A DNA stretch of 64,000 nucleotides from Fibrobacter sp. (GTDB lineage: Bacteria > Fibrobacterota > Fibrobacteria > Fibrobacterales > Fibrobacteraceae): NCBI GenBank assembly GCA_017475045.1, contig JAFVGH010000133.1:1-64000 (forward strand). The letters are read 5' to 3'. Shown in pieces: positions 24,477-48,696 of the stretch (its first letter is position 1; each line of letters begins with the position of its first letter). The notes under the pieces are model-generated. The model saw only the letters and a list, made by a program, of their open reading frames with translations. It was not told the DNA's origin and made no database searches. The translations under genes and the position numbers were made by a program.

Positions 24477-24482
24477 ATGGCT

Positions 24483-29109: not shown

Positions 29110-29127
29110 AGGGAAACCTTTTGGAAA

Positions 29128-30258: not shown

Positions 30259-30276
30259 AGAGAAACCTTTGGGGAT

Positions 30277-31416
30277 TTAGTCAGAGTCCTTGACGCAACG
30301 GACGGAAAAAGCCTCTCTCTTGAACCTAAGTCTTTCGTTGCCGCGGTGGGAGTCGTTACGCAATTCCATGCTGTAAGCGTTTTTGCTATCATCCTCCAGT
30401 GTAGACCAGAATAAGGTGTAGAAGCCAGCAAAGGCGAAACTGGATTCACCCATAAAGATGCTTCTTTCGCCAGCAGGCAAGGCGGAAAACCCGTAGCCAT
30501 CCTTATTTGGATAATCCGTCCAGCCTGTCGTAGACTTGAGCCATTGACCTGTCGTTTCATTGCCCCATCCACCTGCCGTTTCAATGCCCCCGGTAAACCA
30601 TCGCCATTCCGTTTCGCTGGGCAGGTGCCAGCCCTCCGGGCAAATACCCTGCTGCACACCGGTAGGGCTGCAGGTATTGCCGTAGCCACATTTCGCATTA
30701 TTCATGGCAACTTCCCAAGTGTACAGGCGACCATACTTGGCACAGGAGTCAGCTTCGTCGTTGTAGCAGCCACTCCATGCATAGTTTCCCATACTGGACA
30801 CATCACCCGGATCGTAGTTCAGGTTCTGTGCCATCCAAATTCGACCATTAACCATTTCGATGGTCTTGTATACCTGGCCGTCACGGGTGTCTAGCATTTC
30901 GCCATATTTGCCAGCTGCAAGCATCTCCTGATTCAGGTATTCAAGCGACGAGGTCGCATCCTTGCAGATCTGATCCGCAGGGCAGTTTTTTGCATAGTAG
31001 CCGGATGGTTTCACCCCCTCTGGCCAACTGTTTGGCGTCGTTCCCGAGGAACTGAATGAATAGCCATTCTTGCTGTCGGAGGAATAATCGTCGTCATTGC
31101 GGGAGTCGTTGGATTCTGTAGAGAAGTCGCAGTCCATCTTCTCGATGAGAGTTCCGATGACCCAGCCGTTGTCGCCATCGCAAACAGCCATGTCATGGTA
31201 TTCCGTCAGGTAGGTGGCAACGCACTTCTGACTCTTGCCGCAGTCGTAATCCGACAGTTCCATGAATGTCTCGACGGTGTCAGGAATTCCACCACGATTG
31301 CTGCCGCTACCATTATCACCCCCCGCCGACGACGAGTCATCGCAGGCGGAAAGGGCGAAACCGAGCACCCCCGCAAGGGCGCAGACCGTGAACTTTTTCG
31401 CGAATGTGTTTTTCAT
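30277..31416 (-). CDS. Paralogous-domain lipoprotein 3 (TIGR02145)
   Basis: 379 aa. Shares the leader MKNTFAKKFTVCALAGVLGF and lipobox LSAC with paralogues 1 and 2, but its linker differs and lacks the repeat-derived segment. Two Cys-containing stretches follow (DYDCGKSQKCVATYLTEYHD and KNCPADQICKDATSSLEYLN). The domain begins DTRDGQVYKTIEMVNGRIWMA and runs through GRLYTWEVAMN, GICPEGWHLPSETEW, YGFSALPAG and FSVRCVKDSD. The SD-like AAAGGTTT in front of the ATG is conserved among the tandem copies. It lies 18 bases after the stop of paralogue 4. Surface binding is a common guess for the family; nothing here proves it. Confidence 0.85.
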   Translation of the reverse strand: MKNTFAKKFTVCALAGVLGFALSACDDSSSAGGDNGSGSNRGGIPDTVETFMELSDYDCGKSQKCVATYLTEYHDMAVCDGDNGWVIGTLIEKMDCDFSTESNDSRNDDDYSSDSKNGYSFSSSGTTPNSWPEGVKPSGYYAKNCPADQICKDATSSLEYLNQEMLAAGKYGEMLDTRDGQVYKTIEMVNGRIWMAQNLNYDPGDVSSMGNYAWSGCYNDEADSCAKYGRLYTWEVAMNNAKCGYGNTCSPTGVQQGICPEGWHLPSETEWRWFTGGIETAGGWGNETTGQWLKSTTGWTDYPNKDGYGFSALPAGERSIFMGESSFAFAGFYTLFWSTLEDDSKNAYSMELRNDSHRGNERLRFKREAFSVRCVKDSD

Positions 31417-31434
31417 AGCAAAACCTTTTGAGAT

Positions 31435-32454
31435 TTAGTCCGAGTCCTTGAGACAACGAACGGAGTGCCCGTAGACCTTATCGTTGACGTACTTGCCCGC
31501 ATAGTCGTTGCGGTAGTCCAAACCCATGACGTACGCGTCGTAGGAGATGGTTTCCTCAGTAGAACTCCAGAAGTACGTGCCATAGCCCTTGTAGCCGTAA
31601 TTCCCAATGGGGTAGTACCTGGTGCCGGCAGGAAGCGCCGAGAACCCGAAGGCATCCTCGTTGGTGATGCCGCTGTACGACGTCCAGCCAGTCGCGGACT
31701 TGAGCTTGGTACCCGCCGTATTTGAAGACGTATATTCCGTAATGGAACCGTCAACGGCCACAATCAGGGCTTCCCATTCGCTTTGACTGGGCAAATGCCA
31801 GCCCTTGGGGCATGCACCACGAATATCTCCCTCACCAAGGTTGCATGCATGATCAATACCACACTCGTCCTCCGCCCTGCCCACTGCAGCAGCCCAGGTA
31901 TAAAGACGACCGTACTTGGCACAGTTGGCAGGGTTGTCGCCGTAGCACCAGCTGTTTTCCGTCTCAAAGTTCAGATTCTCGGCCATCCACACCTCGGAAT
32001 AGTTCTTTGACGGGATGTCAATGGTGGTGGTCTTGTAAACCTGACCGTCGCGCAGGTCCTTCAGGGTGTTCTTGTCGGCGTCATAAACGCTGGCGTCGCT
32101 GCCGCCGCCGGGGACGCTTGCGGAAGAGCCTTCCACGCCTTCGGAGCCGCTGGAGTCCGGCTCTTTGGAAGCGCTGGATTTGGTCGACGTTCCTGCCGAA
32201 GAAGGGCTATCCTTGCTGTCGCTGGACTTGGCGTCGCTATCCTTATCAGTGACCTTGCCGCTGCTGGAGATTGCTTCGTCCTTATCGTTGGAACGAGAAT
32301 CACTGGATTCTTCGCGGCTATCGCCGCTCAGAATGACGTTATTGTCATCGTCACCCGCCGACGAAGAATCATCACAGGCGGAAAACGCGAAGAAAGTTAA
32401 ACCGGCTGCACCTATTAAGAAAATTTTCTTGACATACTTCAATTTACTCTTCAC
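31435..32454 (-). CDS. Paralogous-domain lipoprotein 4 (TIGR02145), first of four tandem genes
   Basis: 339 aa. The leader differs from the other three (MKSKLKYVKKIFLIGAAGLT), but the lipobox FSAC and the following CDDSSSAGDD match. The linker carries two dispersed-repeat segments: NNVILSGDSREESSDS (repeat 32303-32338) and DKDEAISSS (partial repeat 32266-32284). The domain runs from DLRDGQVYKTTTIDIPSKNY through VWMAENLNFETE, GRLYTWAAAVG, GACPKGWHLPSQSEWEAL, FGFSALPAG and HSVRCLKD. It is the promoter-proximal gene of the tandem set. Its 5' end abuts an apparent gene remnant on the other strand. Confidence 0.85.
   Translation of the reverse strand: MKSKLKYVKKIFLIGAAGLTFFAFSACDDSSSAGDDDNNVILSGDSREESSDSRSNDKDEAISSSGKVTDKDSDAKSSDSKDSPSSAGTSTKSSASKEPDSSGSEGVEGSSASVPGGGSDASVYDADKNTLKDLRDGQVYKTTTIDIPSKNYSEVWMAENLNFETENSWCYGDNPANCAKYGRLYTWAAAVGRAEDECGIDHACNLGEGDIRGACPKGWHLPSQSEWEALIVAVDGSITEYTSSNTAGTKLKSATGWTSYSGITNEDAFGFSALPAGTRYYPIGNYGYKGYGTYFWSSTEETISYDAYVMGLDYRNDYAGKYVNDKVYGHSVRCLKDSD
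32266..32284 (-). repeat. Partial dispersed GACGAAGCAATCTCC unit inside lipoprotein 4
   Basis: AAGGACGAAGCAATCTCCA matches the distal half of the units at 28915-28950 and 30070-30105. It encodes KDEAISS in frame; the proximal TCATTGCGAGG half is missing. Confidence 0.5.
32303..32338 (-). repeat. Dispersed CGTCATTCTGAGC...GAAGAATCCAG unit inside lipoprotein 4
   Basis: On the minus strand it opens CGTCATTCTGAGCGGCG and closes CGCGAAGAATCCAG, with inverted GGCGATAGCC in the middle. It encodes VILSGDSREESS in frame. Confidence 0.6.
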
Positions 32455-32817: not shown

Positions 32818-32902
32818 ACCATTTTAGTGACACCTAGTCCTGTTTTTAGGCTGTCCCGTCGTTTTTCCTGGCCAAAAGTTCATGGCTTTTGGCCCATTTT
32901 TC

Positions 32903-32910
32903 TATCTTTT
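32903..32910 (+). promoter_or_regulatory. Putative -10-like box TATCTTTT
   Basis: TATCTTTT followed by CGCCCACT and then the ATG at 32919, an eight-base gap. Same TAnnTTT pattern as before other genes; the CGCC after the box recurs too. Confidence 0.4.
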
Positions 32911-32918
32911 CGCCCACT

Positions 32919-35900
32919 ATGAACAATTCTGTGAACGATTTATGGGTCGGCGTGGACGTGGGTTCTACCACGGTGAAAATCGCAGTCGTCGATCCCGCTA
33001 CTTCCAAGCTTTTGCACTACACCTACCAGCGCCACAACGCCATGCAGGCCCAGAAGGTCTTCGAGGTGCTGCGGGAGGCCCACGGGCTGTTCCCGGGAAA
33101 GAATTTCAGGGTCGCCTTTTGCGGTAGCGGCGGTCAGCCCTTCGCAGACGCCACCCGCGCGTTTTTCGTTCAAGAAGTCGTAGCCAACGCCCTTGCGGTA
33201 CGTGCCACCTACCCCGATACCCGAGTGGCTATCGAATTGGGCGGCCAGGACGCCAAGGTGGTGTTCTTCGAGAAGGACCGCACCACGGGCAAGCTTATCG
33301 CCTCTGACATGCGCATGAACGGCGTGTGTGCCGGCGGTACGGGTGCCTTTATCGACCAGGTGGCCGAACTTCTGCGTATCAAGACCGAGGCTTTCGAGGG
33401 TTACGCGAAGCGTGGCCAGAAGGTCTACGAGATCTCGGGCCGTTGCGGCGTTTTCGCCAAGACCGACATCCAGCCCATGCTGAACAACGGCGTTGCCAAG
33501 GAAGACATCGCCCTTTCCAGTTTCCACGCCATCGCCAAGCAGACCATCGGCGGTCTTGCCCAGGGCATGGAAATCAAGCCCCCTGTGATTTTCGAGGGTG
33601 GCCCCCTGACCTTTAACCCGACCCTGGTGCGCGCCTTCAAGGAACGCCTGGGCATTAGCGACGAACAGGCCATTGTGCCGGAACATTCCGAGGTGCTGGT
33701 GGCCATGGGTGCGGCCCTTTCGTTGGGCTCCATGTTCGCCGAGCAGGAATGCCAGTACCGCATGGAAGGCTCCCTGGACGCCCTTGTCCACTTTAACGAG
33801 ACCCGCCAGGCCGAAAACAAGGCCAAAGCCGCAGCCGATCTTTTCTTCAAGAACGACATGGAATACAAGATGTTCCTGGAAGAGCACAAGATGGCGGGCA
33901 ACAACTACCCCCAGCCGGCGTCGGGCTCTACCCTGAACGTGTACCTAGGTATCGACGCGGGTTCTACCACCACGAAGTTCGTGCTCATGGACGAGCAGGA
34001 AAACGTGGTGGACGGCTTTTACGCCAGCAACAACGGCGAACCCCTGCAGGTGCTGAAGAATGCCCTGAACGAACTTTCGGACCGCTACGAGGAATACGGT
34101 TGCACCCTGAACATTCTGGGTGTGGGTACCACAGGCTATGGCGAGCAGTTGTTCGCCAAGGCAGTCCACGCCGACTACCATACGGTGGAAACGGTGGCCC
34201 ATGCCAACGCCGCCCAGAAGATCTGCCCCGACGTAAGCTTCATCTTGGACATCGGTGGTCAGGACATGAAGGCCATCTCCGTGCAGGACGGCGTGGTCAC
34301 AGGTATCATCTTGAACGAGGCCTGCTCCTCGGGTTGCGGCTCCTTTATCGAGACTTACGCCCGCAGCCTGGGCATTCCCATGGAAAAGATTGCCGAGATG
34401 GCATTCAACGCCAAGAGCCCTTCCCAGCTGGGTAGCCGCTGCACCGTGTTCATGAACAGTTCCATTATTACGGAACAGCGCGACGGCAAGCAGCCCGAAG
34501 ACATTATCGCGGGCATCTGCCGCTCCATCATCAACAACGTCTTTACGAAGGTGATCCGTATCCGCAACCTGAACACCCTGGGTCAGAAGGTGGTGGTGCA
34601 GGGAGGTACCTTCAAGAACAACGCCGTTCTTCGCGCTTTCGAGCAGTACACCGGCCTTAAGCCCATCCGTCCTGAACGTCCGGGCGAAATGGGCGCTATC
34701 GGTATCGCGCTCCTCACCAAGAAGTTCATGGAAGAGAAGCGGAAGACCGAACCGGAACTCAAGAGCCGCTTTATCGGCCTTGACGCCATGAAGACCTTCA
34801 GCTGGCACAACCAGCCGGGCCAGCTCTGCCAGTACTGCACCAACCATTGCTCCCGTACCATCGTGACCTTTAGCGACGGCCAGAGCTTTGTGACGGGCAA
34901 CCGCTGCGAGCGCGGCGAAGTGACCGCCGACCCCAACGACCCGAAGACCAAGGCCCTCATTGCCGAAATCAACAAGAAGATGCTGTCCGTGCCCGACATG
35001 ATCAAGCGCACGAACCAGCTCCTTGTGAAGGACTACGCTCCCGCAAAGCTTGTGGAGAACAACGGCAAGACCATCGGTATCCCCCGCGTGCTGGAATTCT
35101 GGGCAAGCCTCCCCTTCTGGAAGGCATTCTTCACCAGCCTGGGCTACACCGTGGTGGTGAGTCGCCAGAGCGACTACAAGATGTTCGAGGAAGGCCTCCA
35201 CAGCGTGCCCTCCGACACCGTGTGCTTCCCCGCCAAGCTGGTCCACGGCCACGTGCTCAGCCTTATCGAGAAGAAGGTGGACCGTATCTTCTTCCCCATG
35301 ATGGTGGCTGTGCCCAGCGACCATACCAAATTTACCGCCACTTCCGTGTGCCCCGTGGTGCAGGCCTACCCCAACGTCTGCAAGAACACCGACGAGCCCG
35401 AGAAGAACTACGGCATCCCCATGGACCAGCCCATTTTCCACTGGTTCAACGCCAAGCTCCGTCGTAACCAGACCGTGGAATGGTTCCACGAGAACTGGAA
35501 ACTGGACAAGAAGCTTTTGAACAAGGCCGTAGACGAAGGCGAAAAGGCCCTCCAAAGCTACCGCGCCACCCTCCTGGAAGAGGGTCAGAAGGTGCTGGAC
35601 GACGTGCGGGCCAAGAACAGCTTTGCCGTGGTGATTGCTGGCCGCCCCTACCATGCGGACATGCTCATCAACCACAACATCGCAAGCCATTTTACCGCCA
35701 TGGGAATCCCGGTGCTCACCACCGAATCGCTCCCGGGCGTGTACGACCAGGATGTGCCCAGCCACACCCGTATCGAAATCAAGAACACCTTCCACCTGCG
35801 CATGATCGGCGCCACCATGATTGCGGCCAAGGACCCCAACGTGGAACTGGCCCAGATCGTTTCTTTCGGCTGCGGTCACGACTCCATTCTGACCGACGAA

Positions 35901-36266
35901 ATGATGCGCATGATGCACCAGGATTCCAACAAGGAAATGCTGATGCTCAAGCTGGACGAAGGCGACGCCCGTGGCCCCGTGGGAATCCGCATCAAGAGCT
36001 TTATCGAGACCGTGAAGGCCCGCCGTGCGGCAAACCTGCCCGACAAACCCGAAAGTCACGAACCGCTGTTCCACACGCCCTTCATGCCCGAAGACAAGCA
36101 GCGCCGCCGCATTCTGACGCCGAACCTGTCTCCCGCATTTACGGTGCTGGCCAGCGTCTACATGAAACGTGAAGGCTACACCGCCGAATACCTGCCGGTG
36201 GCCGACAAGGAAGCCATCGAGCTTGGCAAGAAGTACATAACGACATCTGCTTCCCCTGCCAGGTGA
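32919..36266 (+). CDS. Acyl-CoA dehydratase activase-related protein, N-terminal part of a frameshifted gene
   Basis: 1115 residues before a premature stop. It has two BcrAD/BadFG-type ATPase domains in a row: GVDVGSTTVK with Cys in NGVCAGGTGAFID (first), and GIDAGSTTTK with Cys in NEACSSGCGSFIE (second). The activase family uses these to hold ATP and a shared 4Fe-4S cluster. A cysteine-rich stretch (CQYCTNHCSRT) and a DUF2229-type domain follow. The reading frame ends KKYITTSASPAR, whereas the other frame continues HNDICFPCQVNIGEA without a break. One C seems to be missing at ~36236, and restoring it gives a protein of about 1476 aa, the size of intact relatives. ATG 32919 is preferred over the TTG at 32889. 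Confidence 0.85.
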   Translation: MNNSVNDLWVGVDVGSTTVKIAVVDPATSKLLHYTYQRHNAMQAQKVFEVLREAHGLFPGKNFRVAFCGSGGQPFADATRAFFVQEVVANALAVRATYPDTRVAIELGGQDAKVVFFEKDRTTGKLIASDMRMNGVCAGGTGAFIDQVAELLRIKTEAFEGYAKRGQKVYEISGRCGVFAKTDIQPMLNNGVAKEDIALSSFHAIAKQTIGGLAQGMEIKPPVIFEGGPLTFNPTLVRAFKERLGISDEQAIVPEHSEVLVAMGAALSLGSMFAEQECQYRMEGSLDALVHFNETRQAENKAKAAADLFFKNDMEYKMFLEEHKMAGNNYPQPASGSTLNVYLGIDAGSTTTKFVLMDEQENVVDGFYASNNGEPLQVLKNALNELSDRYEEYGCTLNILGVGTTGYGEQLFAKAVHADYHTVETVAHANAAQKICPDVSFILDIGGQDMKAISVQDGVVTGIILNEACSSGCGSFIETYARSLGIPMEKIAEMAFNAKSPSQLGSRCTVFMNSSIITEQRDGKQPEDIIAGICRSIINNVFTKVIRIRNLNTLGQKVVVQGGTFKNNAVLRAFEQYTGLKPIRPERPGEMGAIGIALLTKKFMEEKRKTEPELKSRFIGLDAMKTFSWHNQPGQLCQYCTNHCSRTIVTFSDGQSFVTGNRCERGEVTADPNDPKTKALIAEINKKMLSVPDMIKRTNQLLVKDYAPAKLVENNGKTIGIPRVLEFWASLPFWKAFFTSLGYTVVVSRQSDYKMFEEGLHSVPSDTVCFPAKLVHGHVLSLIEKKVDRIFFPMMVAVPSDHTKFTATSVCPVVQAYPNVCKNTDEPEKNYGIPMDQPIFHWFNAKLRRNQTVEWFHENWKLDKKLLNKAVDEGEKALQSYRATLLEEGQKVLDDVRAKNSFAVVIAGRPYHADMLINHNIASHFTAMGIPVLTTESLPGVYDQDVPSHTRIEIKNTFHLRMIGATMIAAKDPNVELAQIVSFGCGHDSILTDEMMRMMHQDSNKEMLMLKLDEGDARGPVGIRIKSFIETVKARRAANLPDKPESHEPLFHTPFMPEDKQRRRILTPNLSPAFTVLASVYMKREGYTAEYLPVADKEAIELGKKYITTSASPAR

Positions 36267-37348
36267 ACATCGGCGAGGCCCTCAAGTGGCTCGTCAACCA
36301 CCCCGAGGTTCCCCAGAACCAGGTTTCCATGTGCCTTGCCAAGAACTGCGAGAACTGCCGCGCCGTGCAGTATGCGGTACTAGCCCGCAAGGCCCTGGAC
36401 GAGGCCGGTTTCAAGGACGTGACCATCATTACCACCGGCGTAGACTACAAGGGAATGCACCCCGGATTCCAGCTGGGTCTGGATTTCCGCCTCCACATGC
36501 TGTGGGGCCTTGTGACCATGGACGCCATCGAGATCATGTACCGCGCCGTGCGGCCCTACGAAGTTCACGAAGGCGACACCCAGAAGATTTACGACGAATG
36601 GATGCCCAAGGTAATCGGCGTGGCAGGCAACCTGACCACCGCACAGCTGGTGCGACCCTCCAAGCTTCTGGAAGTGTTCGACCAGTGTATCGAGGCCTTC
36701 AACTCCATCGAGATTACCGAAGACCGCAAGAAGGGAATCCGCAAGCCCCGCGTGGCCGTGCTTGGCGAAATCCTGATGAATTACCACCCCAGCGCCAACG
36801 GCTTCATCGAAAATTACCTGATGAACAACGGCATGGAAGTGTACCTGCCCGGCATGACGGACTTCTTCCGCGTAGACGAGGTGGTCCGCGCCGAAAAGCT
36901 GAAGCGCGGCTTCTCCGCCAACCCGCTGAAGGACCGCATCGAAGGCGGCGTCACAGCCAAGGTCTATACCCACGCCGTAGAGACCGCCCGCAAGGCCATG
37001 CACAAGTTCAAGCTGTACGAACACCATGCAGACTGCGTGGAACTGAAGGACTACGTATCCGACATCATCGACCCCACCTACAATACCGGCGAGGGTTGGC
37101 TGATTCCGGGCGAAATTCTGTACAACTCCCAGCATGGCATCAACAGCCACATCATCTTGCAGCCCTTCGCCTGCCTGGCCAACCACATCTCCGGACGTGG
37201 ACTTACCAAGGCCGTAAAGGAACGTTGCCCTCATATTCAGATTCTCAGTCTGGACTATGACCCGGACACCAGTTTTGCTAACATCGAAAACCGCCTGCAG
37301 ATGTTGATCATCAACGCCCGAGAGCTTGAAAAGGCGAACCAGGCTTAA
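36263..37348 (+). CDS. Acyl-CoA dehydratase activase-related protein, C-terminal part of the frameshifted gene
   Basis: C-terminal continuation in the other frame, coding sense from ~36237 (HNDICFPCQVNIGEALKWL). The GTG at 36263 is the formal start but is an internal Val codon in the presumed ancestor. The segment has CLAKNCENCRAVQ with several Cys, MNYHPSANGFIENYLMNNGM, GMTDFFRVDE and LQPFACLANH, resembling the 2-hydroxyacyl-CoA dehydratase subunit fold. Without frame repair, it would lack a ribosome site and the Cys-x2-Cys of ICFPCQ. Either the gene is broken or one base is missing from the sequence. The role in this organism is not known; family members activate or perform radical dehydration of 2-hydroxyacyl-CoA. 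Confidence 0.8.
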   Translation: MNIGEALKWLVNHPEVPQNQVSMCLAKNCENCRAVQYAVLARKALDEAGFKDVTIITTGVDYKGMHPGFQLGLDFRLHMLWGLVTMDAIEIMYRAVRPYEVHEGDTQKIYDEWMPKVIGVAGNLTTAQLVRPSKLLEVFDQCIEAFNSIEITEDRKKGIRKPRVAVLGEILMNYHPSANGFIENYLMNNGMEVYLPGMTDFFRVDEVVRAEKLKRGFSANPLKDRIEGGVTAKVYTHAVETARKAMHKFKLYEHHADCVELKDYVSDIIDPTYNTGEGWLIPGEILYNSQHGINSHIILQPFACLANHISGRGLTKAVKERCPHIQILSLDYDPDTSFANIENRLQMLIINARELEKANQA

Positions 37349-37387: not shown

Positions 37388-38470
37388 ATGTTTCAGATGA
37401 ACATCTCCAGAGTGGTTGCCGCGGCTTTTCTTGTCTTGATGTCTGCCGCTTTCGGAAACACGAACAACTCCGACGGGGAGTCCTTTCAGCGCTATTCCTT
37501 AGTACCCGTACTCGGCTACACCGAAGAGACGGAGTTCCAGATTGGGGCTATGGCCCTGTTCTTTCTGAAACCGGATTTTGCAGGCGGCAAGGTTCCAGAA
37601 ATCGGCCTCACGGCCTACGGCTCTACACGGGAGCAGCTGCAGCTGGTGCTGGAACCCTACTTCTATTTTTTCCACGACCAGGTTACCCTCTGGAGTCTGG
37701 TCAAGTACCAGGACTGGGTCGCCAGCTATTTCGGGAGAGGCAACGACCCGGACATAGACAAATTCGTCAACTACGACCGAAAAAAAATACAGCTGGGCAC
37801 AAGAGTCGAATCCAGGATAGGACTGCCCCAGAGCCTCAAGTACGGCATCGAAATCCACGTAGAGCGTTCGGACATAGACTTTGAGGAAAGCGAGACCATC
37901 AAGACCCCAGATACCCATTCGGGCTGGCGAAACGGCGCCGGTTACCTGTTTGGGCTCGACACGCGGGACAACACCAACTGGACCCGCCACGGTTTTCTTA
38001 TGGAGTGGAAACAGCTGTTTTACAGCGATAGGCTCGGCGACTACACCTTCGATACGGAATCCCTGGACTTACGGGGCTATACCGAAACACCCCTGCAAAC
38101 TTCCCTGGCTCTCGGTTTTCTCTGGATGCGTTCCGACGGCGACGTCCCCTTCGACATGCTGGCGGGCCCAGACGGAATATGCCGTTTCCGTGGAGTGGAA
38201 AGTCTCTATTTTGGCGACAACCAGGCGGTCATCCTTCAGGCCGAAATCCGGCGCTTTTTGTTCTGGCGTTTCGGGAGTCATGTCTTTTTCGAAGGAGGCA
38301 AGTCCGGTAGCTATTTCAGCGATCTGGTCCGCAACGAATGGCACAAGTCCGTCGGGATTGGCGCACTGCTCGGCCTGAACCTGAAAGAAAACCTGTTTGC
38401 CCGCGCAGATTTCTCGTGGGTAGATTTCGACCACCTGGGACTTTCGTTCTATGTCCGCCAAGCGTTTTAA
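37388..38470 (+). CDS. Omp85/bacterial surface antigen-like outer-membrane barrel
   Basis: 360 aa with signal peptide MFQMNISRVVAAAFLVLMSAAFG. The mature part is made of amphipathic strands (LVPVLGYTEETEFQIGAMALFF, IGLTAYGSTREQLQLVLEPYFYF). Later motifs GAGYLFGLDTRDNTNWTRHG and FRGVESLYFGDNQAVILQAEIRRFLFWRFG match the barrel of the BamA/TamA surface-antigen family, and the last residues FYVRQAF end in Phe. No POTRA domains are present, so it is a barrel-only relative. It sits between the activase and the thioesterase, 39 bases after the former. Possibly a lipid or protein port for the downstream pathway; that is a guess. Confidence 0.7.
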   Translation: MFQMNISRVVAAAFLVLMSAAFGNTNNSDGESFQRYSLVPVLGYTEETEFQIGAMALFFLKPDFAGGKVPEIGLTAYGSTREQLQLVLEPYFYFFHDQVTLWSLVKYQDWVASYFGRGNDPDIDKFVNYDRKKIQLGTRVESRIGLPQSLKYGIEIHVERSDIDFEESETIKTPDTHSGWRNGAGYLFGLDTRDNTNWTRHGFLMEWKQLFYSDRLGDYTFDTESLDLRGYTETPLQTSLALGFLWMRSDGDVPFDMLAGPDGICRFRGVESLYFGDNQAVILQAEIRRFLFWRFGSHVFFEGGKSGSYFSDLVRNEWHKSVGIGALLGLNLKENLFARADFSWVDFDHLGLSFYVRQAF

Positions 38471-38496: not shown

Positions 38497-38901
38497 ATGC
38501 AAACCAACAATCACATACACACCACCCGAATCGAAGTCCGCTACGCCGAAACCGACCAGATGGGGGTTGTTCACCATGCAGTTTACCCCGTATGGTTCGA
38601 ACTGGCCCGTACCGATTATTTCCGCTCCCTGGGCGCTAGCTACGTGGAAATAGAAAAAGAGGGGTTTGTAAGCCCGGTTCTCAAGCTAGAAGTCCAATAC
38701 AAGCGCCCCACCCACTATGGGGAATTTGTGGATATCGAAACCACCCTGACCCGCAAAGGGTCGCTCCACTTCGTATTCGACTACAAGGTTTTTGTCGATG
38801 GAGCGCTCTGCTCTACAGGCTCATCCGTGCACTGTTTCCTGAAAAACGGACAGCCCACGCGAGAACTGCCCAAGCAAGTCAAAAAAATATTCCCGGATTA
38901 A
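38497..38901 (+). CDS. Acyl-CoA/acyl-ACP thioesterase, 4HBT (YbgC) family
   Basis: Hot-dog-fold thioesterase, 134 aa. Starts MQTNNHIHTTRIEVRYAETD; the family motif YAETDQMGVVHHAVYPVWFE contains the catalytic Asp in the YbgC/FadM position. LKLEVQYKRPTHYGEFVDIET follows. A longer reading from 38338 would overlap the barrel gene and lacks homology. The role would be to release or edit the acyl chain made by the downstream ACP and ketosynthase, as ApeK-type thioesterases do. It is separated from the ACP by 126 AT-rich bases that may contain a promoter. Confidence 0.88.
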   Translation: MQTNNHIHTTRIEVRYAETDQMGVVHHAVYPVWFELARTDYFRSLGASYVEIEKEGFVSPVLKLEVQYKRPTHYGEFVDIETTLTRKGSLHFVFDYKVFVDGALCSTGSSVHCFLKNGQPTRELPKQVKKIFPD

Positions 38902-39288: not shown

Positions 39289-41685
39289 ATGACTCCTGAC
39301 GAACGCCGCTGTGTAGTTACTGGCCTTGGCGTTATTTGCGCCGTCGGTAACAATGTTGAAGAAACCTGGAAAAGCGCCCTGAATTCTGTTTCGGGAATCC
39401 ACAAGACCACCTCGGTGGATACCAATAAATGTTATGCGGACTTGGCTGCCGAAGTCAAGTGCGACACCCTAGACGAAATCGACGCACCAAAAGAAAAAGA
39501 CCGAGTTTCCAAACTTTGTATCAAGGCCACAAAAGACGCACTGGCCGATGCCGGCCTTACAAACTTTAACGACGACCAGCGCGTAAGCGTGGTTATCGGC
39601 AGTTGCGTAGGCGGGGTCCTCTCTATTGAACAATACCACCAACACGGTCGCGATGTTTCTGAGATTGCCAAGATGCCCATTGCGGCAATCGCCTCCCAGG
39701 TAGCCGAAACCTGCGGAGCAGGCGGAATCGTTACCAACGTGGCCAACGCCTGTGCGGCGGGCACTATTTCCATTGCCGTCGCCTGTGACCTGATTCGTGC
39801 TGGCAAGGCAGACGTGGTCATCGCAGGCGGAGCCGATTCCTTTGCAGCAGTTCCCTATTCCGGATTCCTTTCGCTCCACGCCCTGGACGAAAACGGCTGC
39901 TCCCCCTTCAACCGCTGTAACGGCATTACCCTAGGCGAGGGTGCGGGTATCGTCATCGTGGAATCCTACGAACATGCCCAGAAGCGTTCCGCAAGGCAGT
40001 ACTGCGAAATACTGGGCTCAGGCGTTACCAGTGACGCAAACCACATCACCGCCCCTAGAGAAGATGGAGTGTGCCTGATGGAAGCCATCAGCCGCGCCGT
40101 CAAGAATTCCGGCATCGACAAATCCGATATCGGCTACGTGAACGCCCACGGCACAGGAACAGGCAAAAACGACAATGCCGAAATTACCGCCTTCAAAAAT
40201 TTCTTCGGTGAAGACAATGCCAATATCTCCGTGAGCTCCACAAAGGTTCTCACAGGGCACTGCCTTGGAGCGGCCGGCGCTATCGAAGCCGTATTCAGCA
40301 TCAAGGCGCTTACGACCGATACGGTGCTCCCGACCTTCCCCTACACCGAAGAACAGTCCGCCGCCCTCAAGGAAAAAGTCGGAAAACTGGATTTTGTGCA
40401 GAACAAGGCACGCCACAAGAAACTCAAGTGCGTCTTGAGCAACAACGTGGCCTTCGGCGGCACCAATGCAGCCATCGTATTCTCGAAAATTCCGGGCGAA
40501 GTTTCCGCCCAGTCTGCCGCAGGCAAAAAGATTGCCGTGACGGGTCTTGGAATTGTCTCTCCGCTAGGGAACAGCAAGGCTGCCTACCTGGAAGCGGTCA
40601 AAGCCGACAAGAAACCAGAATCCGCTTCGGTCCATTCCACAATCGCCCTGGAAGACTACAAGGAACTCGGGGTCAAGATGGCCTTCTACCGCAAACTGGA
40701 TAACCTGGGGCAACTCCAGACGGTGTCCGGCATGCGGGCCCTCCAGGATGCAAATTTTACGGTGACCGACGACAACGCCAAGGAAATCGGCATCATCGTG
40801 GGTACCAGCGAAGGCGGTCTCGGCGCCACCTACGATTTCGAGGAGCTGATTGCACGGGAAGGCAACTCTCAGGGTTCGGCCTTCAAGTTCCCCCATACGG
40901 TCTATAACGCTGCGGGCGGCTACCTCTCCATTTGTTCCGGCATCAAAGGCTACGGCGTCACCATAACCACGGGCCCCCTTTCGGGACTCGACAGTATCGG
41001 CTACTCCATGAACGTGATTCACGACGGTCAGGAAAAGGCAATGATGGCCACCGGTACGGACGAAAACTTGCCGATTATTACGGAATTCGCCCAAAAACTG
41101 GGCGTAGCGGCAAACAACGTGGTCGCACCCTATGCCGAAAATGACGGCTTTGTGGTGGGAGACGGCTCCGTGTCTATCATGCTCGAAGACGATTCTTATG
41201 CCAAGTCCCGGGGTGCCAGGGTTTACTGCTATGCGCTGGGCTTCGGCCACGGCCGCAAGAACGTGAAGTTCGGAAAACTTGCCGGTTCCGAAGAAGCCCT
41301 CGACAAGGCCATTGCAGAAGCCCTGACCGATGCAGGTGTTTCTGTAAATGACATCGATGCGGTTTGCGGGTTCGCCAACGGTTGCAAGCGGATTGACGAC
41401 ATCGAAAAGGGTTCACTCAAACGCATGTTTGGCGAAAAACTGGGGTCGTTGCCGCTCTTTGAAGTCAAGGAACGTACCGGTGAAGGCCGTGCGGGGTCTG
41501 CCGCCCTGGCCGCCGCCGAAGCAGCACTGCTCCTGAGTGGCGAACTGGTCAACGACAACGCTTACTTTGTGGCGGCAGATGGTTCAGTTTCGGCAAAAAA
41601 GACAGAATCAGCAAAACTCAAGAAAATTCTGGTCATTTCATATGCGGCGGGTGGATCTTACAGCGCCGTCGTGTTCGGGAAATAG
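39289..41685 (+). CDS. Fused beta-ketoacyl-ACP synthase and chain-length-factor-like protein
   Basis: 798 aa made of two ketosynthase folds. The first (1-~405) has the full triad: Cys155 in NACAAGTIS, His287 in NAHGTGTGKND, His324 in KVLTGHCLGAAGA, then NNVAFGGTNA. The second (~413-798, from KIAVTGLGIVSPLGN) keeps the fold but has Pro563 in place of Cys (TGPLSGLDS), Asn697 in place of the first His (GFANGCKR) and Glu732 in place of the second (RTGEGRAGSAA). Loss of all three residues is what chain-length factors show. In aryl-polyene and aromatic type II systems the KS and CLF are usually separate proteins. Here they form one chain. It lies between the ACP and a ketoreductase. Confidence 0.92.
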   Translation: MTPDERRCVVTGLGVICAVGNNVEETWKSALNSVSGIHKTTSVDTNKCYADLAAEVKCDTLDEIDAPKEKDRVSKLCIKATKDALADAGLTNFNDDQRVSVVIGSCVGGVLSIEQYHQHGRDVSEIAKMPIAAIASQVAETCGAGGIVTNVANACAAGTISIAVACDLIRAGKADVVIAGGADSFAAVPYSGFLSLHALDENGCSPFNRCNGITLGEGAGIVIVESYEHAQKRSARQYCEILGSGVTSDANHITAPREDGVCLMEAISRAVKNSGIDKSDIGYVNAHGTGTGKNDNAEITAFKNFFGEDNANISVSSTKVLTGHCLGAAGAIEAVFSIKALTTDTVLPTFPYTEEQSAALKEKVGKLDFVQNKARHKKLKCVLSNNVAFGGTNAAIVFSKIPGEVSAQSAAGKKIAVTGLGIVSPLGNSKAAYLEAVKADKKPESASVHSTIALEDYKELGVKMAFYRKLDNLGQLQTVSGMRALQDANFTVTDDNAKEIGIIVGTSEGGLGATYDFEELIAREGNSQGSAFKFPHTVYNAAGGYLSICSGIKGYGVTITTGPLSGLDSIGYSMNVIHDGQEKAMMATGTDENLPIITEFAQKLGVAANNVVAPYAENDGFVVGDGSVSIMLEDDSYAKSRGARVYCYALGFGHGRKNVKFGKLAGSEEALDKAIAEALTDAGVSVNDIDAVCGFANGCKRIDDIEKGSLKRMFGEKLGSLPLFEVKERTGEGRAGSAALAAAEAALLLSGELVNDNAYFVAADGSVSAKKTESAKLKKILVISYAAGGSYSAVVFGK

Positions 41686-42893: not shown

Positions 42894-42921
42894 GTCAGTG
42901 GTTAGTGGTTAGTGGCTAGGA
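42894..42921. repeat. Heptanucleotide tandem array, 4 diverged units
   Basis: Units GTCAGTG, GTTAGTG, GTTAGTG, GCTAGGA. It fills the gap between the dehydratase and the acyltransferase, and the acyltransferase's formal GTG start lies inside the third unit. Confidence 0.6.
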
Positions 42922-43619
42922 ACTCAAAGAAAAACCCGCTGGTGGAATGCATCATGCATCTCGTTGTCATCGTGGTGATATACACGGTGCGCGTCTTTAT
43001 GTTTGCCTGGTTCCGCCCGAAGGTCGTCTTTACAGGTGAATCGGTCAAGTCCACTCATCTTAGAACTCCATCGGTGATTATCGCCAACCATACCAGCATG
43101 CTCGACCCGATCATGATGCTTGCCGTATTTTTTTCACACAAGAGCATCGTGGTGGCCAAGGACCAGATTGAAGATCCCCATTTCCGTTGGGCCCTCACCC
43201 GCGCCAAGTGCGTGATTCCCTGTGACCGTTTCAACATGGACACCGAATGGGCTCTGCTTGCCAGGCGGGAACTGGAAAAGGGGAACAACGTCATCATTTT
43301 CCCCGAAGGCAAGTGCCGTTACGACGGGCTGCTGAACGAATTCAAGACCGGATTTGCTTTCCTTGCGCGCAGTACCGGAGCGCCGGTTCTTTCCGTGGGG
43401 CTTGACGGAATCTACAAATTTGGACACCGTACCCGTATCGTGGTAGGAGATGCCGAAAAAATTGAACGGGTGAAGGGAATCACCTCTTCTAAGCACTTGG
43501 CAGAACGGAGCGAATATTTCAGGCAGAAAATCTGGCAGCTCAAGCAGCAGGCCCTTGGCATAGCAGACCCAAAGGTTTTGCCCGTTGCCGCAGAGACCCC
43601 AGAAGAGGTACTGGCATGA
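42912..43619 (+). CDS. PlsC-type acyltransferase
   Basis: 235 aa if begun at GTG 42912, 221 aa if begun at ATG 42954. Motifs are IIANHTSMLDPIM (catalytic His/Asp), FPEGKCRYDG and a hydrophobic anchor HLVVIVVIYTVRVFMFAWF. It transfers an acyl group, probably from ACP or CoA, to a lipid acceptor, like ApeD-type acyltransferases. The ATG at 42954 follows GGTGG eight bases upstream and does not depend on repeat DNA, so it is my preferred start. Its stop overlaps the patatin start (ATGA). Confidence 0.85.
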   Translation: MARNSKKNPLVECIMHLVVIVVIYTVRVFMFAWFRPKVVFTGESVKSTHLRTPSVIIANHTSMLDPIMMLAVFFSHKSIVVAKDQIEDPHFRWALTRAKCVIPCDRFNMDTEWALLARRELEKGNNVIIFPEGKCRYDGLLNEFKTGFAFLARSTGAPVLSVGLDGIYKFGHRTRIVVGDAEKIERVKGITSSKHLAERSEYFRQKIWQLKQQALGIADPKVLPVAAETPEEVLA

Positions 43620-44461
43620 AAACGGGCCTTGTACTAGAAGGAGGCTCTCGCCAGACCATGTTCAGCGCAGGCGTGCTGGACACCTTTATGGACGAAAATA
43701 TTCCCTTCGACTACATCGCGGGCGTTTCTGCCGGGGCACACGCGGCCATCAACTACATTACCCGCCAACAGGGGCGTCTCCGCTTTATCGTCTTGCCCAC
43801 CCGACTCCAAAAGGGGAAGAAATGGGCAAGCAAGTACATCGGCATCCAGAAGGAATTTCACGCCCTGAACTACCTGTCTGCCGACGGCGAAATGCCCTTG
43901 GACTTTGAAGCCTACGCAAATTCCAGAGTCGAATGCGAAATCGGACTCACCTGCTGTGAAACGGGTCGTGCCGAATTCAAATCCGAAAAGCAAGACAAGA
44001 AGCGGCTTCTGGACCTGATTAGCGCCAGTTGCGCCCTGCCCATGCTGTTCCCTATGGCAAAGCTAGATGACAGGCATTACGCCGACGGGTGCATTACCGA
44101 GCCCATTCCATACGAACGGGCCTTCGAAAAAGGATGCGACAAGGTTGTGGCCATATCCACCCACTATCCGGGCGAAGCGGTGACGGATTTTCGCAAGTAC
44201 CGGGCCATCTTGAACCCGCTGTACAAAAACAAGTACCCCAACCTCTTTCGGGCATTGATGGTACGGCTCAAACGGTACGAAAAGAAGTTTAGCCAGATGG
44301 AATCCCTGGAAAAAAAAGGGAAACTGTTCTTGATTCGCCCACTTATTGACCTTTGCGACCAGTTCGATACCGACATGGATAAGATGAACGAATCCTATGA
44401 GCACGGCGTCGAGATGGCAAAACAGCGTATGGAAGACCTGAAGGCATTCCTGGAAATCTAA
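43616..44461 (+). CDS. Patatin-like phospholipase
   Basis: 281 aa, cytoplasmic. The oxyanion-hole loop LVLEGGSRQTMF (5-16) is followed by GVSAGAH with nucleophile Ser38. The catalytic Asp156 is in HYADGCITEP, replacing the usual DGG/DGA. The segment SASCALPMLFP is the usual patatin substrate region, and the Lys-rich C-terminal third (KRYEKKFSQMESLEKKGKLF) could contact membranes. The enzyme would release fatty acids from lipids. Its place inside a polyketide/lipid-transfer operon suggests it edits the acceptor lipid or recycles product. It overlaps the acyltransferase by four bases. Confidence 0.85.
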   Translation: MKTGLVLEGGSRQTMFSAGVLDTFMDENIPFDYIAGVSAGAHAAINYITRQQGRLRFIVLPTRLQKGKKWASKYIGIQKEFHALNYLSADGEMPLDFEAYANSRVECEIGLTCCETGRAEFKSEKQDKKRLLDLISASCALPMLFPMAKLDDRHYADGCITEPIPYERAFEKGCDKVVAISTHYPGEAVTDFRKYRAILNPLYKNKYPNLFRALMVRLKRYEKKFSQMESLEKKGKLFLIRPLIDLCDQFDTDMDKMNESYEHGVEMAKQRMEDLKAFLEI

Positions 44462-44484: not shown

Positions 44485-45240
44485 ATGGCAGAAACAAAGA
44501 AAATCCTCGTAATGGTAGCAAGCCCCAAGAACGAACGGAGCGGCACTCTGATTCCTACCAAGGCCTTTGTCCAGGGCCTTGAAGAAAACGGAAATTTTGA
44601 AACTGAATATATCTTCATCGACAAGATGAACATCAAGCCCTGTCGTGGTTGCCTCAGTTGCTGGGGCCGGCCCGATGGCAGTTGTTTCATCAAGGACGAC
44701 GACGTCCCCGCCATACGTGAAAAGTTAACCAACGCCGACATTGTCATCTGGAGTTTCCCGCTGTTCCTGTTCAGCATTCCCGGGCAGATGAAGGTGTTGA
44801 TGGATCGTATCGTGGGAATGGTCCACCCCTACATGGGCCAAAAACTTCAAGAAGGCGCAAACGCATCCAATTCCAACCTTCATGGGCTTCAGTTCCAAAA
44901 AGAAGGCCAGAAAATCATCTTGCTGTCTAGCTGCGCCTGGTGCGATCTGGACGTGGTTTACGAGCCCATCGTAAAACAGTTCGACATTATCCTAGGGCAC
45001 AAGGGCTACCAGCTTGTGGCCTGCCCCCAGATGCGTGCCCTGCACCACCGGGGTGGGGAACGCAGACTAAACATCTTGCGCAAACGGTACTGGCAGGGCG
45101 GTGCGGAACTCGCAAAGACAGGCAAACTGTCCAAAGAGGCGATAGACCTCATGCAAAAGACTATCTTTAGCGACGAAGCCTACGAGAAACTGGTCGTGGA
45201 ATTCGTGACCCACATGTTCGACCGGGATGACAATTTCTAG
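44485..45240 (+). CDS. Flavodoxin-fold NAD(P)H-dependent oxidoreductase
   Basis: 251 aa. The FMN phosphate loop is MVASPKNERSGT, and a Cys-rich motif KPCRGCLSCW...GSCFIKDDD follows at ~52-75, typical of iron-sulfur-flavoprotein-like FMN reductases. PLFLFSIPGQMKVLMDRI is the second FMN contact. The C-terminal half carries CAWCDLDVVYEPIV. It may reduce a quinone or polyene bond, or supply electrons. It begins 23 bases after the patatin gene. Function in this operon is unknown. Confidence 0.8.
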   Translation: MAETKKILVMVASPKNERSGTLIPTKAFVQGLEENGNFETEYIFIDKMNIKPCRGCLSCWGRPDGSCFIKDDDVPAIREKLTNADIVIWSFPLFLFSIPGQMKVLMDRIVGMVHPYMGQKLQEGANASNSNLHGLQFQKEGQKIILLSSCAWCDLDVVYEPIVKQFDIILGHKGYQLVACPQMRALHHRGGERRLNILRKRYWQGGAELAKTGKLSKEAIDLMQKTIFSDEAYEKLVVEFVTHMFDRDDNF

Positions 45241-45266: not shown

Positions 45267-46334
45267 ATGACCTCGATTGCAGAAACCATAAGACTCCCCT
45301 CTCGGCTGACCGCAGCCAACAGCAGGAATCTTCTGCACAAATGCAAGAATTGCCTCCGCAGGGGCGACCTCTGCCTTGACGGGACAATGCTTGCCCAGAT
45401 GGACTATAGCGGTGACGCTTTTTTTTCCCTGCTAGCCGACCTGTCCGAAAAAACGGGGCACAAGCTAACCCTCGCCCATTTCTGTGACGACATAAAGACT
45501 CACCTAAAAAACCTAAAAAGACAAAAAGTCCCGGCAAGGGAAAAAACCAAGCGGCATTTTCTTGAAATTCTTGGAGAAAAAGGGATAAGGGCAGCCAAGG
45601 GCACTGCCGAAGTTTTCGTGCTGCTGAACATGTCCATCTACTGGAGCCTGCTGGGGCCATTCGACAAGGGAAAAATCAAGTTTCGCGGGACTGCCAAACA
45701 AATTTTTGCACTGGGCAGCGAAGCCATGGGCATCTGTTTTCTGATGGTGGCCCTGATTTGCTTTACCATGGCCCTGCAAAGTTCCTTTATGCTTAAGGCC
45801 GTAGGCGGCGGCTCCTACCTGGCCTCCGGTCTCGGATTCCTGATTTTTGCAGAAATCGGACCGCTTCTGACCACTATCATTCTGGCGGGCCGCTCCGGCA
45901 GTTCCATTGCGGCAGAAATCGCCAATATGTCCGTATGCGAAGAAGTCAAGGCCATCAAGACCATGGCCATTCCGCCTGTTCAATACCTGGTAGTGCCCCG
46001 CTTTATCGCCATGAGCATTTGCACGCCAATCCTTTCTTTCTGCGCATCAATCTGCGGATGCTTCGCCGGATTCCTGATAGCCTTCTTTTTCTTTGACATC
46101 ACCTTTACCAACTATTTCAATTCTATCCGCGAAGGCATCGAGCCGATTCTTTTCTTAAAGAGTTCCATCAAGGCCCTTGTTTTCGGATGGTTGGTCACCC
46201 TTATATCTTGCAACAAGGGGTTGAACGCCACCGGCGGTGCCGAGGCGGTTGGCCTCGCCACAACTTCCAGCGTGGTAACTTCCATTTCTGCAATCATCGT
46301 TGCCGACACCTGCTTCGGCTTCATATTCTACTGA
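45267..46334 (+). CDS. MlaE-type ABC permease with N-terminal STAS-like domain
   Basis: 355 aa. Residues ~30-85 (LCLDGTMLAQMDYSGDAFF ... ADLSEKTGHKLTL) resemble a STAS domain, which some MlaE-type permeases carry. After a basic linker, four to five hydrophobic helices begin at ~145. EIGPLLTTIILAGRSGSSIAAEIANM is the conserved MlaE segment that contacts the ATPase, followed by EEVKAIKTMAIPPVQYLVVPRF. It is the membrane subunit of an MCE lipid transporter with the next three genes. The direction of transport is not fixed by sequence. Confidence 0.9.
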   Translation: MTSIAETIRLPSRLTAANSRNLLHKCKNCLRRGDLCLDGTMLAQMDYSGDAFFSLLADLSEKTGHKLTLAHFCDDIKTHLKNLKRQKVPAREKTKRHFLEILGEKGIRAAKGTAEVFVLLNMSIYWSLLGPFDKGKIKFRGTAKQIFALGSEAMGICFLMVALICFTMALQSSFMLKAVGGGSYLASGLGFLIFAEIGPLLTTIILAGRSGSSIAAEIANMSVCEEVKAIKTMAIPPVQYLVVPRFIAMSICTPILSFCASICGCFAGFLIAFFFFDITFTNYFNSIREGIEPILFLKSSIKALVFGWLVTLISCNKGLNATGGAEAVGLATTSSVVTSISAIIVADTCFGFIFY

Positions 46335-46341
46335 GGACAAA

Positions 46342-47139
46342 ATGGAAGTTCAATCAAAAAATACAATTCTCCGGGTAGATCACCTGAAAGCAGGTTACGG
46401 TGGCAAAACCGTTTTAAACGACATTTCTTTCGATGTGAAAAAAGGCGAGATCCGTATGATTCTGGGGAGCTCCGGCTGCGGAAAATCGACTCTGCTGAAC
46501 AACATCCTAAAACTGATTAAATCCCAAAGCGGAACCATCACCTATTTCGGAAAAACCTTCGGAGCCAAAGAAGGACTGGACAGCGAGACCCGCATGCGTA
46601 CCGGCGTTCTTTTCCAAAACGGAGCCCTGCTTTCGGACCTGACCGTAGCAGAAAACGCCATGCTCCCCCTGATTCGCAGCATGCCCTACATGCCCAAAAG
46701 CCAGATGGAAGCCATCGTTGCCGACAGGTTGGAAAAAGTCCACCTGCTGGACGCGTTCCACAAGTATCCTTCGGAATTGTCTGGGGGCATGAAAAAGCGG
46801 GCTGCCCTCGCCCGTGCCATCGCCCTCAAGCCAGAACTGCTGTTCTGCGACGAACCGTCCACTGGACTGGACCCGGTTACCGCCCGCTCTTTGGACGAAC
46901 TCCTGCTGGAACTTAGGGACACCCTTGGAGTTTCCATGGTTATTGTATCTCACGAGCTAGAAAGCATCAAGATTATATGCGACAGGTTCGTATATTTGCA
47001 GGACGGATACGTACTCATGGACGGAACACTGCAACAAGGACTAGATAGCGAGAACCCTACCCTCTGGAATTTTTTCCGCCGGGAATGCCCCCCTGAAAAA
47101 GACAACAATGAATATTACCATTTCGATTTTCTAGACTAA
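46342..47139 (+). CDS. MlaF-type ABC transporter ATPase
   Basis: 265 aa from ATG 46342, which has GAGGAC at a good distance; a longer reading would start inside the permease gene. Walker A is GSSGCGKST, signature LSGGMKKR, Walker B LLFCDEPSTGLDP, and the switch His is in VIVSHE. It powers the MCE transporter with the upstream permease, seven bases away. The layout matches MlaF. Confidence 0.93.
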   Translation: MEVQSKNTILRVDHLKAGYGGKTVLNDISFDVKKGEIRMILGSSGCGKSTLLNNILKLIKSQSGTITYFGKTFGAKEGLDSETRMRTGVLFQNGALLSDLTVAENAMLPLIRSMPYMPKSQMEAIVADRLEKVHLLDAFHKYPSELSGGMKKRAALARAIALKPELLFCDEPSTGLDPVTARSLDELLLELRDTLGVSMVIVSHELESIKIICDRFVYLQDGYVLMDGTLQQGLDSENPTLWNFFRRECPPEKDNNEYYHFDFLD

Positions 47140-47149
47140 AGAGCGAAAG

Positions 47150-48076
47150 ATGGAAACCACACGCTCCGAAAGAATAAAGATTGGCGCTTTCATGCTCTTT
47201 TGCGGAATACTCATCCTGGTATTCCTGGGCTATGTCCTGTCCCGCTACTTGAACAAGGAATATGACTACTACTACACCATATTCAGCGATTCTGTCATTG
47301 GCCTGTATAACGAAGCCCAGGTCAAACTCAACGGAATTGATGTGGGCAATGTGGTAAGGATTCAAATCGACTCCACGGACTTGAACCAGGTTGTGGTAAT
47401 ATTCCGAGTAAACAGGGGTACTCCAATCAAGCAGGGAACCAGGGCAAGTATGACCCATGGGATTTCCCTTACTGGCGAAAAGCAAATAGTCCTTTCTGGC
47501 GGACGGTTTGACGAACCCAATGTGGAAAGGAATGGTTATGTCCCCGCAGCAGAAAATTCATTTGACAAGTTCGCAAACCAGGCCGGCGACATCGTTGGAA
47601 ATGTAGATGCCCTGGTCGGAAACCTGAACCGCATTTTTTCCAAGGAAAACATAAACAACATAAGCAGCGCCCTGAAAAACCTGGAAAGTGCGACCAGGAA
47701 TTTGGACCAGTTGACACAGAACATATCTTCCCCTATCGAGAATTTCTCTGCTGCAGCCAATTCCATGAAAACCATTCTGGGAGAAATCGAGGAAGCCAAA
47801 ATCGCGGCAAAGGCGGGAACCGATCTGGACCTGATCAAGGAGAAACTGGAAGCCATCGATACCAGGACCATGAACGACAACCTGCAACAGACGCTAGAAT
47901 CCGTAAGGCAGTTGACCGCCCGCCTGGACCAGACCGTCTATAAGAATCAGGACCAAGTAGAAAATGTCATTACCGAACTAAACGCGGTACTTTCCAACAT
48001 GGAAGAATTCTCTCAAAAGATCAAGAACAATCCCTCGGCACTTATCCATTCAGAAGCCAAGGAGAGACGCAAATGA
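47150..48076 (+). CDS. MCE-domain lipid transporter subunit (MlaD-type)
   Basis: 308 aa. An N-terminal membrane helix (IGAFMLFCGILILVFLGYVL) anchors the protein. The MCE domain spans ~40-130, with GLYNEAQVKLNGIDVGNVVRI and ASMTHGISLTGEKQIVLSGG. The rest is coiled-coil-like (SALKNLESATRNLDQLTQNI ... LDQTVYKNQDQVENVITELN), as in MlaD/PqiB relatives that bridge the periplasm. It lies 10 bases after the ATPase and overlaps the lipoprotein gene by four bases. Confidence 0.92.
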   Translation: METTRSERIKIGAFMLFCGILILVFLGYVLSRYLNKEYDYYYTIFSDSVIGLYNEAQVKLNGIDVGNVVRIQIDSTDLNQVVVIFRVNRGTPIKQGTRASMTHGISLTGEKQIVLSGGRFDEPNVERNGYVPAAENSFDKFANQAGDIVGNVDALVGNLNRIFSKENINNISSALKNLESATRNLDQLTQNISSPIENFSAAANSMKTILGEIEEAKIAAKAGTDLDLIKEKLEAIDTRTMNDNLQQTLESVRQLTARLDQTVYKNQDQVENVITELNAVLSNMEEFSQKIKNNPSALIHSEAKERRK

Positions 48077-48696
48077 TTCGATACACGTCATTCTGGGCTG
48101 CGACCCGGAATCTAGCGGCGCTTTTTTTGCTTTCCCTTACCCTGACAGGCTGCTTTGGCGGCGGGACCTCTGAGCCCACCCGCTACTACACTCTCGCCGT
48201 AGAAAACATTTCTGCACCCAAGGCAAGCGGAACTTTTGCAGGCAAGAGCGTAGCCGTAAAGAAATTTACCATCGACCCCGCCTACCAGCGTTCAAATATT
48301 GTCTATCGGGAATCCGCCTACGACTTCATGTTCTATGATTTAGACCTCTGGGCAAGCCGTCCGGAACACATGATTACACGGGTCGTCACGGAATATGTTG
48401 AAAAGAGCAAATTGTTCGAGTCTGTTATTGCGGCAGGCGGCATCATGCCGGATTACGAACTCTCTGGCCACGTCGGGGCAATCGAGGAGGTTGACGAAGG
48501 CAGTTCCCAGTCAGCACACCTGACTATTGGCCTCACATTCAAGAACGTCCAGTCGAGCGCTATCTTGTGGGAGGGCAAATGCGACAAAAGTAGGTCCACC
48601 ACTAGCAGGGAACCGAGAGTTACGGCGGAAGCCCTGTCCAAACTACTGGGCGAATGCTTGGAAGAAAGCCTGAAGGGGATTTCTTCTATAGAATAA
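48073..48696 (+). CDS. ABC transport auxiliary lipoprotein (PqiC-like)
   Basis: 207 aa. A signal sequence ends in a lipobox (LTGC), followed by GGGTSEPTRYYTLAV, the start motif of the PqiC/ABC_trans_aux family. The rest (GKSVAVKKFTIDPAYQRSNIVYRES ... VTEYVEKSKLFESVI ... LTIGLTFKNVQSSAILWEG) follows the family's order. Such proteins sit in the outer membrane and receive lipids from the MCE subunit. It overlaps the MCE gene by four bases and is the last of the lipid-transfer set. Confidence 0.88.
   Translation: MIRYTSFWAATRNLAALFLLSLTLTGCFGGGTSEPTRYYTLAVENISAPKASGTFAGKSVAVKKFTIDPAYQRSNIVYRESAYDFMFYDLDLWASRPEHMITRVVTEYVEKSKLFESVIAAGGIMPDYELSGHVGAIEEVDEGSSQSAHLTIGLTFKNVQSSAILWEGKCDKSRSTTSREPRVTAEALSKLLGECLEESLKGISSIE

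Follow-up and report, generated by a model that had tools for sequence, protein, structure and literature searches.

The window analysed here, the whole of a 64,000-nucleotide stretch of a Fibrobacter sp. contig, contains a single uninterrupted open reading frame that encodes a ketosynthase (KS) half and a chain-length factor (CLF) half in one chain (Table 1). An acyl carrier protein (ACP) gene lies directly upstream of this fusion in Fibrobacter, Treponema, Lachnospiraceae and Lachnospira eligens, and a ketoreductase (KR) gene lies directly downstream in all lineages; wherever the contig is long enough, the order ACP–KS-CLF–KR–FabZ is contiguous in each of them. In many loci a PlsC-type acyltransferase and a flavoprotein are encoded close by, and the cysteine motif of the flavoprotein is kept in every full-length copy found in these loci. 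The Lachnospiraceae clusters add genes for a FabD malonyltransferase and for ACCase carboxyltransferase subunits, and the L. eligens cluster adds PlsX. The KS, KR, FabZ, ACP and acyltransferase are identified, and shown to be intact, by family match or motif.

Table 1. Positions in the window of the KS-CLF gene and its neighbours
Feature	Position	Strand	Matches and remarks
Outer-membrane beta-barrel-like protein, accessory	37388..38470	+	Weak Omp85 match NF047779
4HBT/YbgC-type thioesterase, accessory	38497..38901	+	PF13279, TIGR00051; ORF of 38338 with its start re-set to MQTNNH
Dedicated acyl carrier protein, 81 aa	39028..39273	+	PF00550; phosphopantetheine site GLDSVDSLE
Single-chain KS-CLF, 798 aa	39289..41685	+	KS 1-~403, linker ~404-413, CLF ~414-798
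FabG-type ketoreductase, 245 aa	41704..42441	+	TIGR01830, 271 bits; YSATK (YxxxK)
FabZ-type dehydratase, 148 aa	42438..42884	+	NF000582 above cut-off; kept in all lineages
PlsC-type lysophospholipid acyltransferase	42912..43619	+	PF01553; HTSMLD
Patatin-like phospholipase, accessory	43616..44461	+	PF01734; also in other Fibrobacter loci and Treponema L066
Flavodoxin-fold/FMN-reductase-like protein	44485..45240	+	PF03358/PF02525; CX2CX2CX7C, iron-sulfur-flavoprotein-like
MlaE-MlaF-MlaD-lipoprotein ABC lipid transporter genes	45267..48696	+	Neighbours, outside the conserved core

The Mla, thioesterase, patatin and beta-barrel genes are local accessories. The thioesterase gene occurs in several Fibrobacter loci, not all, and the beta-barrel gene lies upstream of the ACP gene in several; the Mla transporter was rejected as a core component, being syntenic in a close relative (L037) and missing from most other loci. 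A plasmalogen-linked role was likewise set aside, as adjacency to the PlsA-like neighbour that begins at 32889 is not conserved. This neighbour, a BcrAD/DUF2229 protein which we take to resemble the plasmalogen enzyme PlsA, occupies 32889-37348 in two overlapping frames of 1125 and 361 aa; in L037 the same protein is one ORF of 1487 aa, and a frameshift in the gene of this assembly or strain is possible. Further afield, four tandem Fibrobacter succinogenes major domain (PF09603) proteins are encoded on the minus strand at 28105-32454, and another PF09603 protein at 50078-52489.

A Pfam search of the fused protein returned two stretches each for ketoacyl-synt and Ketoacyl-synt_C. The KS half scored 484 bits against the FabF profile TIGR03150 and matched Bacillus subtilis FabF at 1e-77; the best PDB sequence for the CLF half was Escherichia coli FabF (1.7e-35), indicative of a diverged ketosynthase fold. 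The initial annotation had read an intact ketosynthase with Cys155, His287 and His324 in the first half, and an alignment of 34 homologues confirms all three; they lie in the motifs NACAAG, NAHGTGT and TGHCLG, respectively, and together with Lys319 are invariant. In the second half it had placed Pro563, Asn697 and Glu732 opposite these residues. The first and last are right, but Asn697 is two columns off: in an ungapped alignment to FabF it pairs with the Thr of HGT, and Phe695 occupies the column of the first His. Neither Phe695 nor Glu732 varies among the 34 homologues. The Cys column has Pro in the Fibrobacter and Treponema proteins and Ala in those of rumen Lachnospiraceae and L. eligens; Lys727, opposite the KS Lys, becomes Arg in rumen Lachnospiraceae. 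The initial annotation had also remarked that this Pro is not the Gln often seen in CLFs of aromatic systems; the Streptomyces CLF has Gln in the column that here holds Pro or Ala. In all sampled homologues the triad is intact in the KS half and the Cys and both His are lost from the CLF half; a ketosynthase with the active Cys-His-His set is thus joined to a ketosynthase-homologous partner without the active Cys. The FabF gate position is acidic in the CLF half, being Glu508 here and Asp in rumen Lachnospiraceae. Asp113 of Iga11 releases chains after each condensation (PMC8358021), but the comparison is by analogy only, because Iga11 Asp113 sits in the KS and Glu508 in the CLF half.

Although the top BLAST and HMM matches of the CLF half are FabFs, FabF is not its nearest relative. 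In maximum-likelihood trees, which contain few CLF references and have long branches, this half joins a clade of the Streptomyces CLF, the Priestia CLF and unfused Fibrobacterota CLFs, with support of 97/94 in the first tree and 96/93 in a second from which Sclav_KS (an ill-chosen ORF) and Sclav_CLF (which turned out to be an active KS) were left out. The KS half groups with other KSs, outside the ApeO and ApeR clades. Constraining the KS and CLF halves of the fusion family together was 41 log-likelihood units worse (p-AU 0.0003), and a recent internal duplication as the origin of the CLF half is therefore rejected. Within the fusion family the branching order is broadly alike for both halves, which therefore appear to have travelled as a unit. 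A thiolase origin, which the initial annotation had named as fatal to its reading, does not fit either: the alignment to FabF spans most of the CLF half, and thiolases match it only weakly and over part of the sequence.

An AlphaFold model built from the 34 homologues (pLDDT 82, pTM 0.88; low-confidence loops at 108-120, 189-200 and 527-542) had as its top PDB match 6riw, the crystallised PfaC KS-CLF didomain (Santin et al., 2020, as cited in PMC12895367), with the whole chain aligned (TMq 0.75, E 4.5e-45). The FabFs among the PDB matches listed cover one half only, at a TMq of about 0.44. The whole-chain match to PfaC is consistent with an intramolecular KS:CLF dyad, in which the halves are predicted to pack as a heterodimer, and gives the covalent arrangement a precedent in the PUFA synthases. 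Trees and model alike thus support the original reading of a KS fused to a chain-length factor, and we conclude that the protein is a KS-CLF.

First noted on this contig, the fusion recurs in other Fibrobacter genomes, a sister genus, Treponema, Lachnospiraceae and L. eligens. Of 80 Fibrobacter genomes, 51 carry it at full length and one more has it divided between two contigs; all six genomes of the sister genus have it. The Fibrobacter and sister-genus copies show 76–96% identity, those of rumen Treponema 73–75% and those of rumen Lachnospiraceae 50–52%; a further copy lies on the complete megaplasmid of the human commensal L. eligens ATCC 27750. Other Fibrobacterota families include examples of KS and CLF as unfused genes in tandem, as would be expected if two ordinarily separate genes had been joined here by a sequencing or assembly error, a worry raised with the first reading. 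Nevertheless, dozens of genomes spanning three phyla have the same junction, dozens of independent genomes share one identical architecture, which the complete plasmid record of L. eligens also shows, and the active-site columns are conserved in both halves; we give practically no credence to such an error, or to a pseudogene. Within the genus Fibrobacter occurrence is patchy, and the fusion is absent even from some near-complete genomes. Between Fibrobacter and Treponema the KS halves are 78% identical, as compared with 58% for housekeeping FabF, which suggests, short of proof, horizontal transfer between the two.

Two of the neighbouring genes are co-inherited with the fusion. The flavoprotein gene is present in all 52 fusion-positive Fibrobacter genomes but in only two of the 28 fusion-negative ones, and the PlsC-type acyltransferase gene in 51 of 52 and one of 28, respectively (Fisher p about 5e-19 across the 80 genomes, a value inflated by shared ancestry). 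In 13 of the 20 genomes with positions compared, the flavoprotein gene is unlinked to the fusion, so that the association is more than adjacency. Since the partner genes are defined by co-inheritance, the product might be traced by deletion or reconstitution.

An aryl-polyene system is encoded in the same genome, and the initial annotation had set the fusion beside such systems. In the window, ApeR (55% identical to that of E. coli), ApeQ, ApeM, ApeL and ApeD lie at 19451-25381, 14–20 kb from the fusion, and a KS-CLF, a KR and a dehydratase (DH) are common to both systems; the fusion might on these grounds be a fused form of the aryl-polyene KS:chain-length factor. However, ApeE to ApeK, ApeN and ApeO are found on another contig of the genome (C126), the Ape system being split in two, and this ApeO groups with E. 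coli ApeO at 100/100, whereas the fused KS falls outside both the ApeO and ApeR clades. ApeC, which was not found by tblastn in the genome, is a half-size protein, whereas the CLF of the fusion is full-size, and the fusion occurs in Lachnospiraceae, which have no outer membrane. Since ApeO and ApeR are encoded separately from the fusion in this genome, we reject aryl-polyene membership for it, and a fused aryl-polyene enzyme is highly improbable.

On balance we favour the view that the single-chain KS-CLF is the condensing enzyme of a discrete type II lipid-tail pathway whose chain keeps double bonds. The N-terminal KS would condense malonyl-ACP onto the growing chain by means of Cys155, His287 and His324, and the catalytically dead C-terminal half would pack on it as an intramolecular CLF, setting a 1:1 pairing and shaping the acyl cavity and chain length. 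The discrete ACP, ketoreductase and FabZ would serve the fusion as an iterative type II system, carrying the chain through reduction and dehydration. Enoyl reductase (ER) genes were found in none of the fusion clusters examined, which with their discrete ACP, KS-CLF, KR and DH have the composition of a highly reducing type II polyketide synthase (PKS). From this gene set we infer that the chain would retain its double bonds, as a polyene or otherwise unsaturated acyl; a polyene acyl chain is the probable product. The PlsC-type acyltransferase (PlsX in L. eligens) would then put the chain on a glycerolipid. Transfer of an unreduced chain in this way is the leading reading, and the gene set common to Fibrobacter, rumen Treponema and Lachnospiraceae probably builds a lipid tail. 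The Cys-motif flavoprotein may carry out a redox step on the chain; it could itself be an enoyl reductase, which is a point against this explanation.

Rhizobial AcpXL systems borrow Fab enzymes, and the clusters described here might likewise borrow the housekeeping FabV, in which case membrane lipids would receive a specialised fatty acid that is saturated, very long or otherwise fully reduced. FabV is present elsewhere in the Fibrobacter and Treponema genomes (in genome G000, on contig C164), and in a related type II system, that of cispentacin (AmcF-AmcG), FabD/FabI crosstalk with the housekeeping enoyl reductase is established (PMC10698177); the lack of a clustered reductase is for these reasons no proof of a polyene. 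The acyltransferase, PlsX and ACCase neighbours also suit membrane lipid synthesis. Nevertheless, the clusters examined are uniformly without a reductase, and the system is kept in two Lachnospiraceae metagenome-assembled genomes (MAGs), G168 and G170, in which FabK, FabV and FabI were not recognisable. We regard a saturated product as possible but doubtful.

In four rumen Lachnospiraceae MAGs (G168, G170, G174 and G175, with loci L081, L073, L074 and L079) there is no FabF besides the fusion, and the L081 cluster carries FabD and ACCase subunit genes. This raises the alternative that the fusion is the housekeeping elongating synthase in some Lachnospiraceae and a fatty-acid synthase duplicate elsewhere. 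However, G168 and G170, which as MAGs may be incomplete, have no recognisable FabH either, and would therefore make no ordinary saturated fatty acids from recognisable enzymes; if they are representative, and barring the flavoprotein or another enzyme, the chain could not be fully reduced there. Furthermore, G169 keeps FabH, FabF and FabK beside the fusion, G176 keeps a separate FabF, and Fibrobacter has two FabF-like KSs in addition to the fusion. A housekeeping role is thus improbable, and a dedicated lipid-tail pathway remains the reading we prefer. With the TIGR00747 profile, FabH was not detected in the Fibrobacter genomes G000, G105 and G144, so that chain initiation there must use something else.

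These findings point to an acyl-chain pathway that cellulolytic bacteria of the rumen share with rumen spirochaetes and with Lachnospiraceae of the human gut. A bolder proposal, which we think unlikely, is that in this horizontally shared gut-anaerobe pathway the stand-alone KS-CLF and the Fe-S-type flavoprotein, the latter acting on a polyene bound to ACP or lipid in a new kind of redox step, would give rise, without oxygen, to polyunsaturated membrane lipids of a new class, and that the fusion would be the sole acyl-chain synthase in one Lachnospiraceae clade.

The initial annotation had considered a covalent KS-CLF unusual, CLFs being as a rule separate partners. The pairing is indeed covalent here, but such chains were already known from PfaC and HglC (PMC3098273, PMC12895367). 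In PfaC, of PUFA synthases, and HglC (KS-CLF-AT), the KS likewise precedes the CLF in one chain, and the acyl chains are bound for lipids. PfaC, however, belongs to a type I megasynthase (KS-CLF-DH-DH) and its partners are multidomain, whereas the Fibrobacter chain stops after the CLF and all partners are separate proteins; with no fused DH, and with discrete ACP, KR and FabZ as neighbours, the fusion is not a PfaC. The ishigamide Iga11-Iga12 and aryl-polyene ApeO-ApeC systems also combine a KS and an inactive partner with discrete ACP, KR and DH and no dedicated ER, and their polyene logic is presumably common to the fusion system and highly reducing type II PKSs. Unlike the fusion, each pair consists of two polypeptides; ApeC is roughly half-size, and identity between the fused KS and ApeO is about 29%. 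In the actinorhodin-type aromatic type II PKS (1tqy), whose Streptomyces CLF clade the CLF half joins, KS and CLF are not one chain, and, unlike in such systems, cyclase or aromatase genes were not found at the fusion locus.

Single-chain KS-CLFs are found in other discrete systems as well. One of 809 aa is encoded on a Priestia megaterium plasmid (L119); its CLF half is sister to that of the Fibrobacter family (97/94), the KS halves are not sisters, and the gene set differs (GCV_T barrel, PPTase, MFS), with cispentacin AmcF-AmcG compared alongside. The Priestia cluster contains the KS-CLF with FabD, FabG, ACP, FabZ, PPTase, thioesterase and GCV_T barrel protein genes. In other Fibrobacterota (L109-L113, L115), adjacent KS and CLF genes, some with ACP, FabZ and KR, share Glu for the second His but are unfused, with an identity to the fusion of 22% (CLF) and 38% (KS). 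Three further Fibrobacterota loci (L114, L116, L117) encode KS-CLF proteins of ~1250 aa, with a B12-binding and radical-SAM start shown in L114, and in two of the three a second KS-CLF of 770 aa adjoins; the L114 locus, which also has GCV_T, ACP, MAT and KR genes, is a separate biosynthetic gene cluster. Given the single-chain KS-CLFs of Priestia and other Fibrobacterota, KS and CLF probably became fused more than once. As far as our incomplete coverage of the literature extends, PUFA synthases are the only setting in which KS-CLF didomains were found, and a single-chain KS-CLF that stands alone in a discrete system of gut anaerobes looks like a new form. It places a KS-CLF pair in one chain outside the PUFA megasynthases, and offers a simple case, encoded by one gene, in which to ask how CLFs determine chain length at a fixed 1:1 stoichiometry.
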